Translations under genes and position numbers: made by a program | In this document: piece after piece, positions 17,164 to 31,880 of the stretch | How positions within the stretch are numbered: the stretch's first letter is position 1 | Layout: each line of letters begins with the position of its first letter | From: an uncultured Bacilli bacterium | Lineage (GTDB): Bacteria > Bacillota_I > Bacilli_A > RF39 > UBA660 | Direction of reading: 5' to 3' | Length of the DNA stretch: 32,297 bases | Assembly (NCBI GenBank): GCA_944371955.1 | Contig: CALVYB010000008.1 | Coordinates: 1-32,297, forward strand | Notes under the pieces: generated by a model | Databases searched by the model: none | The model's input: only the letters and a program-made list of their open reading frames with translations | What the model was told of the DNA's origin: nothing

Positions 17164-18392
17164 TTTTCTTCACCTCGTAATGCCTTACCAACAATTATAC
17201 CTGACATAAAACTAAAACCTAAATTATATCCTCCGCAATCACCATCAACATCTAACACTTCACCAACAAAATATAAATGGGATACTTTTTTAGATTCCAA
17301 AACAGAATTAACTTCACTAAGTGGTACCCCGCCACTGCAAACTTGAGAAAAACTGAAATCTTTCGTACCAGTTGCAGAAAGAGAAAACTTTAAAATCATA
17401 TTAATAAGAATATTCTTTTCATCATCAGTCAACTGATTCCAGGTTCCTTTAAATGACAACCCACACCTTTTCAAAATAACTAATAATAACTTATATGGAA
17501 GAACTCCTTCTAAAAATTCTATTAAAGAACTATCACCTAGTACTTGTCCTCTCAAAGAAAACCAAGAATCAATTTCCTCTTTATTTTTACCATCTAAAAA
17601 CGGTAAAAAATTAAGTAATAATTGACATTTCTTATTTTCATGAATACCCTTTGAAATATATCGACTTAAATTAAAAACACAAATGCCACTAACCCCATAA
17701 TCAGTTAATTGAATCTCGCCAAATTCCCTTTTTATAAATTTTCCATCTTGAAACAAAGAAACACTACAAAAAGAACGTACACCTGCCCAATCTTTCAAAA
17801 AATTTCCTTCAGTAATAACTTGTACTAATGCTGGATATATAGGAATGATATTGTGTCCAAACTTTTCAGCAAACAAATATCCATCTCCTGTTGAACCAGT
17901 TTTAGGACTTGCTTTAGAACCTGTCGCAATTACTATGTCATCAAAATATTCGCAACCATCTTTCATAACCACGACAAACTTTTCATCTTCTTTAAAAATA
18001 TCTACGACGGTGGTATCAAAAGAAAAATGAACTCCAACTTTTTTAGCATAACTTTCTAATAAGTCCCTAACACTACTAGCCTGATTAGAATAAGGATAAT
18101 AATACCCATCCCTAATATGAGGAACAATACCTAACTTATCAAAAAACTTCAAAACTTCTTCTTGGACTTCTAATGTAATAATATTAGATAATAATTCAGA
18201 ATTACTACTATGATAATGTTCCAGGCTTTGATTACTATTCCAATAATTGCAACGCCCATTCCCTGTTGCTAAAAGCTTTTTACCAAGCTTTGGATTTTTA
18301 TCAAATAAAACGACTTGAACATCATCATTAACTGCCTGAATGGCACACATAACACCAGCAGGGCCAGCTCCAATAATCGCTACTTTTCTCAC
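17160..18392 (-). CDS. HI0933/YhiN-family FAD-dependent oxidoreductase
   Basis: A 410-residue flavoprotein of the HI0933 (BaiN/YhiN-like) family. It starts directly with the dinucleotide-binding IIGAGPAGVMCA, then KLGKKLLATGNGRCNYWN, a signature of this family. The motif ATGSKASPKTGSTGDGY and the C-terminal CSGGVPLSEVN and GEVLDVDGDCGGYNLGFSFMSG segments complete it. Related proteins are annotated as aminoacetone oxidases or bile-acid reductases, but their real substrates are mostly unknown. It is the first gene of a two-flavoprotein operon, with a TATAAT box at 18413-18418 just downstream of the argS terminator. Confidence 0.88.
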   Translation of the reverse strand: MRKVAIIGAGPAGVMCAIQAVNDDVQVVLFDKNPKLGKKLLATGNGRCNYWNSNQSLEHYHSSNSELLSNIITLEVQEEVLKFFDKLGIVPHIRDGYYYPYSNQASSVRDLLESYAKKVGVHFSFDTTVVDIFKEDEKFVVVMKDGCEYFDDIVIATGSKASPKTGSTGDGYLFAEKFGHNIIPIYPALVQVITEGNFLKDWAGVRSFCSVSLFQDGKFIKREFGEIQLTDYGVSGICVFNLSRYISKGIHENKKCQLLLNFLPFLDGKNKEEIDSWFSLRGQVLGDSSLIEFLEGVLPYKLLLVILKRCGLSFKGTWNQLTDDEKNILINMILKFSLSATGTKDFSFSQVCSGGVPLSEVNSVLESKKVSHLYFVGEVLDVDGDCGGYNLGFSFMSGIIVGKALRGEEK

Positions 18393-18451: not shown

Positions 18452-20128
18452 CTACATATGCTCAATAGTATCAATTCCTAATATTCTAAGACCAGTTTCA
18501 AGTACTACCTTAATAGCACATATAAGTCTTATTCTAGAAGCTTTCAAAACCAAATCATCCTCACGTAAAATATTAATTTGTTCATAAAATTTAGAAAACT
18601 GTTGTGTTAAGTTAAATAAATACTTTGTTAAATGTGCAGGTTCATAAGATTGTAATAATTCTTGAATAACCTCCGGAAATCTATATAGATCGTGTACGAT
18701 CTTATATTCAATCGGTTCAACTAGTTTAATAATATTAGAAGAAACATCTCCAACATTCTTAAGTATAGAATTAATTCTAACAATACTATATAAAATATAA
18801 ATACCAGATTCCCCAGTAAAACTAGTAGACTTTTCTAAGTTAAAATTAACAATCTTATTTTTAGAAACATTTAACATAGTAAACTTAATACTAGCATTAC
18901 ATAATTTCTGTAAATCCTCTGGACTAATTTTTTCACCTCTAGAAGATAAATTTTCTTCTAGCTTTTCTTTAACCGCCTTCATAAACTCAGTAACTAAAAC
19001 GACAGTACCACCAGAAGTACTCATTTTGCCACCATCTAATAATACATATGAATAACTAACCAATTTAGGTGACTCATATCCTAAAATATCCAAAACAGCA
19101 CTAATCTGTTGCATATAAACAGCTTGATCTTCACCCAATACAATAAAATTATGTTCTGGATTCCTTTTTATTTTATAAATGGTATATAAAATATCTTTCA
19201 TTGGATATAAAGTGGTTTTATTAGATCTAGTCAATACTAAAACCGGCTCTTTAGTAGGAATATCATAACCAGTTAAATCAACATAATATCTTCCTAACTC
19301 ATCCTCTTTTAATCTATCTTTTTCTTTTAATTGAGTTAAAACAAAATCAATCTCACTTCTATCATAAACATAATCAGATTCATGAGTAAAAATATCAAAA
19401 TGAATATTTAATTCTCCAAAAATCTTTAGTTGTCCGCGAACACATTTATCAGTAATATCTTTAAATTTTTGTATCATTTCTTTATCTCCAGATTCTACTT
19501 TTTCTAAATAAAGAAATGCTTTTTCATCAATAGAACTATCTTCTTTTGCATCTTTACTAATTTTTACATAAACATCTAAAATAGAAGAAAAACTATCATC
19601 GCTAAGACCATAAGACTCAATGCCTATAATAAGTAAAGCAATTTTTTTACCTAAATCATTAATATAATAATGACGATCTACAGAATATCCTGAAAACTGA
19701 TATAAGTTAGATAAAAAATCTCCAATTAAGCTATTTCTGCATCTACCAATATGAGGTTCCGCATTAGGATTAATAGAAGTATGTTCTACTAAAAGAAAAT
19801 CGCCTTTTCCTTCATTAGAAGAACCATACTGACTTTTATTTTCTTCAATCATTGGAATAACATAATTAGCTAACACTTCATAATTAATATAAAAATTAAT
19901 ATAAGGTCCCATAAGCATAATTTGTCTAAAATAGTTTTTATCATCCACAAAGTGTTCTTGAACGTATTTTGCAACATCCATAGGAGTTTTTAACTCCTCT
20001 GTTCTATAATTAGCACATTGAATACTGTAATTTCCCATATTCTCTCTAGGCGGTATTTCTACAACCACATCTTTTTCTAATTGTAAAATTTCTTTAACTT
20101 TTTCTTTAATATAATTTTTAATATCCAT
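18452..20128 (-). CDS. argS: Arginine--tRNA ligase
   Basis: A class I aminoacyl-tRNA synthetase of 558 residues, the normal length. An N-terminal Add-1 tRNA-binding domain is followed by the HIGH-type motif in NPNAEPHIGRCRNS and the KMSKS-type loop DGGKMSTSGG. A C-terminal DALR anticodon-binding domain ends the protein. It charges tRNA-Arg. AGGAGAG lies about ten bases before ATG 20128; the upstream GTG at 20137 would overlap that site. Expression is controlled by the adjacent T-box leader, whose specifier region contains Arg codons. Confidence 0.97.
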   Translation of the reverse strand: MDIKNYIKEKVKEILQLEKDVVVEIPPRENMGNYSIQCANYRTEELKTPMDVAKYVQEHFVDDKNYFRQIMLMGPYINFYINYEVLANYVIPMIEENKSQYGSSNEGKGDFLLVEHTSINPNAEPHIGRCRNSLIGDFLSNLYQFSGYSVDRHYYINDLGKKIALLIIGIESYGLSDDSFSSILDVYVKISKDAKEDSSIDEKAFLYLEKVESGDKEMIQKFKDITDKCVRGQLKIFGELNIHFDIFTHESDYVYDRSEIDFVLTQLKEKDRLKEDELGRYYVDLTGYDIPTKEPVLVLTRSNKTTLYPMKDILYTIYKIKRNPEHNFIVLGEDQAVYMQQISAVLDILGYESPKLVSYSYVLLDGGKMSTSGGTVVLVTEFMKAVKEKLEENLSSRGEKISPEDLQKLCNASIKFTMLNVSKNKIVNFNLEKSTSFTGESGIYILYSIVRINSILKNVGDVSSNIIKLVEPIEYKIVHDLYRFPEVIQELLQSYEPAHLTKYLFNLTQQFSKFYEQINILREDDLVLKASRIRLICAIKVVLETGLRILGIDTIEHM

Positions 20129-20143
20129 AATAATCACTCTCCT

Positions 20144-20340
20144 AAAAAATAAAAAAGTCCACGAATAAGGACGATTTCTCGCGGTACCACCTTATTTCAT
20201 AGACTTTCTATGCACTTAACATTATAACGCTTTTTTGCGATTTAAACTCCAAGACGCGCTTCATTTATCATTACTATTACCTTTCACCAACCGGTAACAT
20301 CACTAAAATAAGAGGATAAATTACTTTTTCTTTTCACAGT
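20144..20340 (-). promoter_or_regulatory. T-box leader (tRNA-Arg-sensing riboswitch) of argS
   Basis: The minus strand carries the conserved T-box AAGGTGGTACCGCG at 20180-20193. The downstream terminator arms (20190-20205 with 20156-20170) and a long T-rich tract (20144-20155) compete with it. A stem I with the GGTTGGTGAAAGG distal part lies at about 20285-20265. The specifier region GAAGCGCGTCTTGGAG (20262-20247) holds CGC and CGT, both Arg codons, in agreement with the downstream gene. Uncharged tRNA-Arg would stabilise the antiterminator and turn argS on. The promoter must lie inside or near the 3' end of the GH25 gene. Confidence 0.92.
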
Positions 20341-20387
20341 TTAACAATAATAATTTTATAAACTTTAATAACTAACAACTAATACTT

Positions 20388-29306: not shown

Positions 29307-29469
29307 ATTTCTTTTCCTTATGTGTTGTATGTTTTCTACATTTAGGACAATACTTACTAATTTCAAGACGTTCTGTAGTATTTTGTACATTTCTTGGTTT
29401 TCTATAGTTTTCTTCTTTGCATTCAGTACAAACAAGAGTCTTCATTTGTCTTTTTCCTTCTTTAGCCAT
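29305..29469 (-). CDS. rpmG: 50S ribosomal protein bL33, zinc-ribbon form
   Basis: A 54-residue protein starting MAKEGKRQMKTLVCTEC and ending HTTHKEKK. It has two CxxC pairs (CTEC and CPKC), so this is the zinc-binding type of bL33. NYRKPRNVQN and LEISKYCPKCRKHT match the family. AAGGAGG precedes the ATG. It has its own TTGCAA-N16-TATAAT promoter and lies directly ahead of efp. Confidence 0.95.
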   Translation of the reverse strand: MAKEGKRQMKTLVCTECKEENYRKPRNVQNTTERLEISKYCPKCRKHTTHKEKK

Positions 29470-29497
29470 TTCTATCCCTCCTTACACGTCTATAGGT

Positions 29498-29525
29498 ATT
29501 ATATCAAAAAAACAATAAATTGCAA
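29498..29525 (-). promoter_or_regulatory. Promoter of rpmG
   Basis: TTGCAA (29520-29525) and TATAAT (29498-29503) with a 16-base spacer on the minus strand. Confidence 0.75.
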
Positions 29526-29564
29526 AAGTTTTTTTTAATAATTACAAATAATTACACATTTTTA

Positions 29565-29766
29565 TTTTTTTTAAAACGAAATTTGATTCTGATGACCACT
29601 ATTACCATTTACTATTGCATCGGAATCAACCTTACCCAAACTAAATTTGGATCAACTTCCAGATTATCACAAACCTTCAATTAAGCTTAACCTGCTCTTA
29701 ACTTTCTACGGAGTGCATATTATTAATATCATCATATATTTCTCCCATATTCTCAACCAAATCACG
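29565..29766 (-). ncRNA. Candidate structured RNA between the PBP and rpmG genes
   Basis: About 200 bases between the PBP terminator and the rpmG promoter contain no credible gene but have their own promoter (29771-29799). The segment ends in a hairpin: 29618-29627 pairs with 29585-29594, one wobble in ten pairs, followed by a modest T-rich tail. Bases near the 5' end (29755-29762) can also pair with 29581-29588, bringing the ends together. A 16-codon frame (29698-29748) lacks a ribosome site. I tested it by eye against tmRNA, RNase P RNA and SRP RNA motifs and found no match. A decayed gene remnant is the main alternative. Confidence 0.35.
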
Positions 29767-29770
29767 CCAT

Positions 29771-29799
29771 AGTATATCAAAAAAATAAAAGAAAAGCAA
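29771..29799 (-). promoter_or_regulatory. Promoter embedded in the PBP terminator
   Basis: TTGCTT (29794-29799) and TATACT (29771-29776) with a 17-base spacer on the minus strand. The -35 lies across the terminator loop and 3' arm, and the terminator T-tract forms the spacer. Confidence 0.6.
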
Positions 29800-29815
29800 T
29801 CATTTTCTTTTATTT
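29780..29815 (-). terminator. Intrinsic terminator of the PBP gene
   Basis: A perfect 13-bp AT-rich stem (29783-29795 with 29803-29815), 7-base loop and T-run, starting right after the stop codon. Confidence 0.8.
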
Positions 29816-29816
29816 A

Positions 29817-31880
29817 CTAATTATAATACAATTCAAAAAACTTATTAGTAACTTCTTTAGTAATATGTAAAGTAACCAAACTAGCATAATCAGTACTAGA
29901 ATTAGGATGAGAAGAATTTGGAGAGGTCACCATAATCGTCATAACTGGATTATTAGCAGGAGCATATCCAACAAAAGATGATGTAATAGTCTCTGTGTCA
30001 ATAATACCATTTCCATCAGTATCTATAAAACTTTGAGATGTACCCGTCTTACCAGCCGCATCCCATTTATTATCAATATATCCTCTTCCATAACCACCAG
30101 TAGAATGCATAACAGCATAAAAGCCCTCTTTAACTCTCGCCATATACTCTGGCTTTGTATCAATAGTGTTCAAAACTTTTTTTTCGACGGTTAAAATAGT
30201 TTCTCCCAAACTGGAATCTTCCGTAGATTTATGTACTTCTTTTAATAGATGAGGAACAAGTCTATTACCATTGTTTGCTATAGTAGTAATATATTGTGAT
30301 AATTGCAAAGGTGTATATGACTCATACTGGCCCATTACAAAATCTAATAAGTTACCCGAATTCGTATCTTGTTTGGCACCATATCCTATACCTTCTGATG
30401 GTAAATCAATACCTGTTTCAACTCCTAAACCAAAGGAATGATACATATTACGATAAGTATCAAAAGCCTTTTGATTAAAATTAAGTTTCATACCAGGAGA
30501 ATACTCTTGACCATTGACCCTGATAGCTGCTTTAAACTGATAAACATTACTACTTTTAGCCAAAGCCGTAATATCATTAATAGTTCCCAAATTATTAACA
30601 GACGAACATTTTTCAGGAGCTCCCGCAACTTTAACACATTCATCAAACATATATTCTCCAATTTTAACAGCTCCTGTATTATAACCGACCAACATAGATG
30701 CCCCTTTAACAACAGATCCAGGCGTTATTGGAAGAGTAAAAACACTAGTTGTATTATCCACAACCTGATTACCTACTAATTTTTTAGATGCCATCGCTAA
30801 AATCTCCCCAGTATTTGGATCTTGAATAATAACACTAGAATGATCATAATATTGAGTATTAGGTTCTGACTTTGTCTTTAAAATTTGCTCAGTTAAAATC
30901 TTTTCTACTTCTTGTTGTAATTCTATATCAATAGCTAAAACGATATCATTACCACGTTTTCCTTCTTTAATTAATTTTAATTCATGAGAATTAATCACTT
31001 GATATTCAGCTTTTTCGCCTCGTAAATAATCTTCATATTGCTTTTCTAGATAGCTAAGGCCAACGCGATCATTCAAAGCATACCCCTTTGATAAATATTC
31101 ATCTTTTTCTTCAGCTGGCAACCCTTGCGTCGTAGTAGAAACCGTTCCTAAAATACTGCGAAAGGTATCACCATAAGGATACACTCGTTCCCAATCTAAA
31201 ACTGTATTAAAACCAGTTAACTCACTATTATGTTCAGCAATATAAGCATATTCTTGATCAGTAGCCTCTTCTTTAATAATTTTTTGATCATATGTATATC
31301 CTTTATTCATTAAATAATATAAATAAGCAGCTTGCAAATCGAGCTCTGTAAAACTAGACAACTCACTAGTCGTGATACGTTCTATTTTAAGTTCTTGCAA
31401 ATCTGTAGTACTAAGTTCACCTGTTTTAACTTTTCCTCTTTCTTTCTTAGTAATTTTTTCATCGCATAACTGAGGATATTTTGCTAAATAAAATTCCTTT
31501 TTGGCTCTATCAGTTAAACTAGAATAAGATAGTTCTAAATGAGGTGAAACAGTATAGGCAAGCTCAATCATTTGACTAGTAGAAATGTTTTTATCTTTTT
31601 TATAAGTAATACTTTTAATTGCTTTATTATCAACAATTATTTTATGATTTCTATCATAAATTCTCCCTCTAGGAGCACTGGTCCCTACTACCTTGGTATA
31701 AGAAAGTTCCTTTAACGTTTTTTTATAATCTTTAGCATCCACAACCATAACGGTATATAATTTAATCACTAAAACACAAAATAACAGAAGAAGAATTACT
31801 AAAAAAAATAAAAAACGTTTAGAAATAATCTGATTATAATTAATTTTCTTTTCTGGACGGTTTAAATAAAGTCTTGTCAT
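29817..31880 (-). CDS. Class B penicillin-binding protein (transpeptidase)
   Basis: A monofunctional transpeptidase of 687 residues. A short cytosolic N-terminus and one membrane helix (about 22-46) precede the dimerisation domain with the conserved RGRIYDRN (about 71-78). The C-terminal transpeptidase has SxxK Ser389-Val-Val-Lys392, SxN (SSN, 443-445) and KTG (611-613), all intact. It cross-links peptidoglycan for elongation or division (PBP2-type, as PbpA/MrdA or PBP2B); which of the two cannot be decided. No PASTA repeats are present. AGAGGG lies before the ATG, and a TATATT -10 box at about 31898-31903 is the probable promoter. Confidence 0.93.
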   Translation of the reverse strand: MTRLYLNRPEKKINYNQIISKRFLFFLVILLLLFCVLVIKLYTVMVVDAKDYKKTLKELSYTKVVGTSAPRGRIYDRNHKIIVDNKAIKSITYKKDKNISTSQMIELAYTVSPHLELSYSSLTDRAKKEFYLAKYPQLCDEKITKKERGKVKTGELSTTDLQELKIERITTSELSSFTELDLQAAYLYYLMNKGYTYDQKIIKEEATDQEYAYIAEHNSELTGFNTVLDWERVYPYGDTFRSILGTVSTTTQGLPAEEKDEYLSKGYALNDRVGLSYLEKQYEDYLRGEKAEYQVINSHELKLIKEGKRGNDIVLAIDIELQQEVEKILTEQILKTKSEPNTQYYDHSSVIIQDPNTGEILAMASKKLVGNQVVDNTTSVFTLPITPGSVVKGASMLVGYNTGAVKIGEYMFDECVKVAGAPEKCSSVNNLGTINDITALAKSSNVYQFKAAIRVNGQEYSPGMKLNFNQKAFDTYRNMYHSFGLGVETGIDLPSEGIGYGAKQDTNSGNLLDFVMGQYESYTPLQLSQYITTIANNGNRLVPHLLKEVHKSTEDSSLGETILTVEKKVLNTIDTKPEYMARVKEGFYAVMHSTGGYGRGYIDNKWDAAGKTGTSQSFIDTDGNGIIDTETITSSFVGYAPANNPVMTIMVTSPNSSHPNSSTDYASLVTLHITKEVTNKFFELYYN

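Follow-up and report, generated by a model that had tools for sequence, protein, structure and literature searches.

A promoter-like signal nested in the terminator of a PBP2B-like gene, at a putative gene-turnover slot of an uncultured Bacilli bacterium

The hairpin that follows a PBP2B-like penicillin-binding protein (PBP) gene in an uncultured Bacilli bacterium is probably a dual signal, a terminator (T1) whose own bases also make up a promoter (P1), placed at a gene-turnover slot which in this genome holds orphan non-coding DNA. At the level of sequence the nesting of the two signals is real and recurrent in the genus, and the new small RNA that had been proposed for the DNA behind them is most likely leftover spacer of the slot, without conserved relatives. 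The window, i.e. the whole stretch of 32,297 nucleotides that was analyzed, is contig C8 of a genome bin of 1.13 Mb (69 contigs, 92.8% complete), which in the named genome collection is closely related to bins of uncultured Bacilli and to Candidatus Faecimonas gallistercoris. Both genes of interest lie on the minus strand: the PBP gene, with PBP_dimer and Transpeptidase domains above the Pfam cut-off (29817-31880), and, across a gap of 347 nt, rpmG, which encodes 50S ribosomal protein L33 (29305-29469; TIGR01023, PF00471). The top NCBIfam match of the PBP gene is PBP2B with an E-value of 9e-138, yet under the cut-off of that model. The promoter scan placed an rpmG promoter, P2 (TTTGCA-N17-TATAAT with an extended -10), at 29498-29526 of the minus strand, and it can be aligned across relatives. 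Beyond rpmG lies an ORF (29267-28701, minus strand) which we take to be efp. Elsewhere on the same strand of the window there is a T-box leader (20164-20346; RF00230, 118.5 bits) upstream of the ORF 18452-20137.

T1 begins one base past the PBP stop codon and consists of a 13-bp stem and a 7-nt loop (29783-29815, minus strand) immediately followed by a T-tract (29782-29779). Its energy (dG) is -8.4, with z values of -2.6 and -3.6 in two shuffle tests, and its stem contains one G-C pair only; the general terminator scan requires three such pairs, and T1 is absent from its output. A stable hairpin with an immediate T-tract just past a stop codon nevertheless has the makings of an intrinsic (Rho-independent) terminator, as which we read T1. 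The -35 element of P1, TTGCTT (29794-29799, minus strand), lies within the loop and 3' arm of this hairpin, and the extended -10, TGATATACT (29771-29779, minus strand), contains TATACT at 29776-29771 preceded by TG, which means that the loop, 3' arm and T-tract of T1 supply both the -35 and the spacer of a TTGCTT-N17-TATACT promoter. With a TGnTATAAT-like -10 and a -35 at 17 nt, where 16-18 are allowed, P1 would be a Sigma-70/SigA promoter of the extended -10 type; its agreement with the plain consensus is poor (8/12), and it is absent from the general promoter scan, whose cut-off was 9/12. The composite of hairpin, T-tract, TTG and extended -10, defined by criteria chosen once the site was known, occurs at a single site in the whole window and in none of 20 dinucleotide shuffles. 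A promoter overlapping the PBP terminator, as given in the preliminary description, is thus borne out as sequence, and it recurs after the same gene within the genus.

For this comparison PBP C-termini in the named genomes gave 73 loci, of which two were short of the PBP end; the other 71 and the window were scored. The strict composite was present at 14 of these 72 loci overall (shuffle mean 2.3) and at 10 of the 14 genus-level ones, window included (shuffle mean 0.50, maximum 3 in 20 rounds), that is, after the PBP gene of nine among 13 genus-level relatives; these counts are not independent events, as L095 and L096 are mutually close and the shuffles take no account of relatedness. The stems of the genus differ in sequence (arms are for example AAATAAAAGAAAA, AGGAAAAAG, GGCTAAGG and AAAATGTCAA) and each still pairs; the TTG of the -35 falls inside the hairpin, at a distance of 16-17 nt to the -10. 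This -10 is TATAAT in eight of the nine relatives and TATCAT in L106, while the hairpin starts at most 2 bases from the stop codon in seven and 62 bases past it in L095 and L096. The strict scan did not find the composite at L094 and L104; its remaining misses are L098, a promoter with an imperfect stem, and L099, where the contig ends 58 nt past the stop. At a further locus, L018, it was recognized by eye and stands outside the strict count. Folding of the P1 region averages -9.4 kcal/mol over 11 loci, as against -4.7 for P2 over 12 loci and -4.6 for a set of 48 similar promoters, the window's own P1 among them, from a 232-kb sample of its genome; only eight of these 48, again with the window's own, fold as well as -7.9 kcal/mol. 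The mean z of the P1 region is -2.93, and the hairpin is not significant at L101 (p 0.285) and L098 (p 0.08).

What lies between the PBP gene and rpmG differs by species, and we propose that the gap is a turnover slot, filled by a LysM/GH25 gene in some species and by orphan genes in others or else left empty, and that P1 would serve whatever occupies it. A LysM/GH25 protein is encoded there in L095, as identified by Pfam, and in L096 and L100 by sequence likeness. L103 and L106 share an orphan family of about 178 aa, a relative of which is also found behind the LysM protein in L100, and L097, with L094 the closest locus at 94% PBP identity, carries a 140-aa orphan; the slot proteins of L103 and L097 have no NCBIfam or Pfam match. 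In L098, L101, L102, L105 and L018 the slot is gene-less, P1 is only 38-68 nt from the rpmG promoter, and both TTGCTT and TGnTATAAT of P1 are invariant among these five species. In L094 and L104 the gap lacks P1 as well as any slot gene (no ORF of 60 aa), and P1 is therefore not essential.

In the window the slot contains approximately 206 nt of orphan non-coding DNA (29565-29770, minus strand), which would be the 5' leader of P1 or an RNA. No homologue of this segment was found in 15 other genomes of the genus, where only short AT-rich stretches matched, nor in 290 other sampled genomes of the family, 18 of which match by AT-rich pieces of 22-45 nt only (at E 5e-4 the family search returned 19 of 291 genomes, own genome included). 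The preliminary description had called it non-coding, and in the searches made there is no ORF of at least 60 aa, no coding signal (the score of the minus strand was reached by 368 of 1000 shuffles and that of the plus strand by 320 of 1000, in a test which picked out 88% of 60 genuine coding chunks carrying two deletions), and no protein homologue in shifted frames by Pfam, phage, family-genome and frameshift-aware searches. Its GC content of 0.32 is coding- or RNA-like, tied third among 41 intergenic stretches. The composition of the segment is therefore unusual in itself, and comparison with relatives lends it no support as an RNA gene.

The alternative which survives best, although we consider it rather unlikely, is a species-specific small RNA of about 190 nt, read by P1 on the minus strand and ending after a hairpin at 29583-29629 with a broken U-tract. 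The extended -10 promoter and the GC enrichment speak for it, as does the inverted repeat that would form the hairpin (TTGATTCTGATG / CATCGGAATCAA, present in both strands, with a 23-nt loop), which was matched by only 1 of 100 shuffles. Twelve positions of this repeat make 11 pairs and one mismatch (G.U in the plus strand, A.C in the minus strand). The 3' hairpin noted earlier thus exists as an inverted repeat, but only a broken T-run (AUUUCGUUUU as U-tract) lies 3' of it, and the pairable ends described together with it were not recovered, the 3' end of the segment being unpaired in the minimum-energy fold. Against a small RNA, the 206 nt of the minus strand fold no better than chance (z 0.04; 489 of 1000 shuffles as good); the part 29565-29700 alone has a z of -1.47. 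The search of Rfam gave no match at gathering score, in agreement with the earlier statement that the segment matched no small RNA recognizable to its author, which leaves no known RNA family as a candidate; below threshold, the gap matched OrzO-P and two snoRNAs best, with 17-19 bits. It is not the 6S RNA either, since RF00013 has no match in the window and the 6S RNA candidate of this genome is found on contig 10 (21693-21884; 39.3 bits, below the Rfam cut-off). Nine of ten other genus genomes searched have a 6S RNA that passes this cut-off. Of the features expected of a small RNA gene the segment has its own promoter, a good 3' terminator was not found, and neither conservation nor covarying structure was seen in the genus and family genomes searched. 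A unit running from P1 to a hairpin is also present in the gene-less relatives, which is in favor of a small RNA; the covariation check on homologous PBP-rpmG gaps, run with RNAalifold on the five gene-less slots, turned out unfavorable (covariation term +2.52, two-sided change in 3 of 37 pairs) and a conserved RNA in these slots was rejected. Because there is no conservation in the relatives searched, no significant minus-strand structure of the whole segment and no clear 3' terminator, the unassigned RNA of about 200 bases suggested in the preliminary description is left unsupported.

It is also unlikely that P1 has been kept as a second, tandem promoter of rpmG, with the segment only as its leader. 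The invariance of the P1 elements in the five species without an intervening gene would be explained in this way. However, a hairpin in the P2 region, which could stop transcripts from P1, is significant in four of these five (L101, L102, L105 and L018; p 0.01-0.02), and in L095 as well (p 0.005-0.02 for all five loci with the hairpin). In the window's own P2 region the hairpin is not significant (p 0.40). Furthermore, outside the genus the composite was scored at only four of 58 loci, and because three of these four are by position the rpmG promoter itself, P1 does not generally accompany rpmG. In the four gene-less relatives P1 and P2 bracket a tiny ORF-free unit, and transcripts from P1 may end there as discrete RNAs of about 50-80 nt rather than enter rpmG.

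A more extensive scheme, which we hold to be very improbable, is a polymerase relay along PBP-rpmG in which successive terminators would each hold the next promoter, with a stop at T1, a restart at P1 and, where a hairpin overlaps P2, a further stop and restart there; a cell-wall gene, a ribosomal-protein gene and the swappable slot between them would in this way be coupled although they share no transcript, and the tiny gene-less P1 units would hand the polymerase on. The plus strand of 29565-29700, C-rich and G-poor in its sequence, folds with a z of -5.2 (0 of 1000 shuffles as good, the inverted repeat being the main contributor), and the plus strand of the whole segment folds better than 998 of 1000 shuffles, in tests that covered several windows and both strands. 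Least probable of all is that this part is a plus-strand structured RNA or protein-binding element, antisense to the gap: its fold and the G.U pair of the repeat point that way, but no promoter-like site was listed on the plus strand of 29400-29816 at a cut-off of 9/12, no homologue was found on which covariation could be assessed, the same repeat is present in both strands, and several windows were tried.

As for the origin of the segment, a three-frame composite that was protein-like at first sight was rejected as a frame-shifted protein: a single piece of it matched Pfam, below threshold (hSH3, E 0.07, 14.1 bits versus a cut-off of 25.7), it had no match in PHROGs, phages and viral contigs, and its best E-value outside the own genome in 291 family genomes, 0.012 per genome, is about that of chance. 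Fourteen of the weak matches in the family genomes fall on ORFs of 628-676 aa, the start of which, as we take it, resembles that of a serine recombinase. The frameshift-aware score against six of these ORFs was reached by 2-16 of 100 shuffles, and a profile of ten, filtered on a motif, scored -1.1 bits on the segment; a recombinase relic is accordingly unsupported, the family having been picked because of its match. Six X-filled frames of the segment gave nothing in Pfam up to E 1. Remains of the known slot genes were not detected either, as 175-300 of 300 shuffles were as good against the four slot proteins tested, and a relic of the 140-aa or 178-aa gene in the window is not significant; in the gap of L094 (genome G003) only 8 of 300 shuffles were as good against the 140-aa gene, which is a weak hint of its relic there. 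An origin from plasmid or phage DNA was set aside, with no match in one search and E 0.7 only in the other. Neither protein similarity nor a coding signal marks the segment as a pseudogene by these tests, which heavily decayed remains would escape, and we infer that it may be the relic of a lost or replaced gene.

Our preferred explanation is that the PBP transcript ends at T1, acting in RNA as an intrinsic terminator, and that in DNA the same bases serve P1 as -35 and spacer. Judged by the position of the -10, an RNA from P1 would start near 29764. Because no good terminator was found between P1 and rpmG by the terminator scan and fold tests, this RNA most likely decays or runs into rpmG as a leader of about 295 nt beside P2. 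A polymerase let go at T1 would find itself right on P1, which makes recycling or mutual occlusion mechanically plausible, and equally so; it is possible that termination and initiation are here mutually dependent.

Tight terminator/promoter junctions are recurrent in this genome, an architecture that looks like compaction of an AT-rich genome and is possibly useful for polymerase recycling, and part of the likeness between hairpin and promoter can come from A- and T-tracts. In the 232-kb sample, window included, the strict composite was counted four times, once without flanking genes, versus 0-1 in five shuffles, and in 200 kb of genome G010 once, no more than in shuffles (0, 0, 0, 1 and 1). 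A terminator-like hairpin follows 51 of the 202 ORF ends in the sample, and in 9 of the 51 an extended -10 comes close behind; this count has no shuffle control, and one of the nine was printed over too short a stretch for the -10 to be visible. A further site of the same genome (L002, contig 25, about 18337-18372), which came from a DNA search, has TTGCTA-N17-TATACT inside a terminator and then a possible start codon.

Terminator and promoter signals of neighboring units are known to be intertwined in the frd terminator/ampC attenuator of Escherichia coli, where the promoter comes before the shared terminator. T1/P1 is similar in this intertwining and differs in that the terminator itself supplies the bases of P1, which is directed away from it. 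Single-molecule studies describe that RNA polymerase frequently remains on the DNA once intrinsic termination has taken place and is able to restart at a promoter nearby, and that in E. coli and B. subtilis terminators and promoters are close neighbors (PMC6978380, PMC11347151). In such recycling termination or facilitated reinitiation the promoters are, as described there, nearby, up to about 1000 bp away, whereas T1 and P1 share bases; by analogy, a promoter inside a terminator would be the shortest polymerase hand-over of that kind. Bidirectional A-tract/T-tract terminators (PMC12207403) resemble T1 in having an A-rich arm and a T-tract around the hairpin, but there termination occurs on both strands, while in T1/P1 a promoter uses the hairpin. 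Promoters nested in terminators were not found as a named bacterial class among open-access titles, mostly at title level.

One caution to be drawn is that in AT-rich genomes a promoter-like site that overlaps a terminator is not necessarily the sign of a small RNA gene. Should the dual signal act as we read it, this genus would offer a natural set of related sites, some followed by a gene and others not, where the same bases serve both termination and initiation, and on which polymerase recycling and the transcriptional coupling of neighboring genes could be tested directly.
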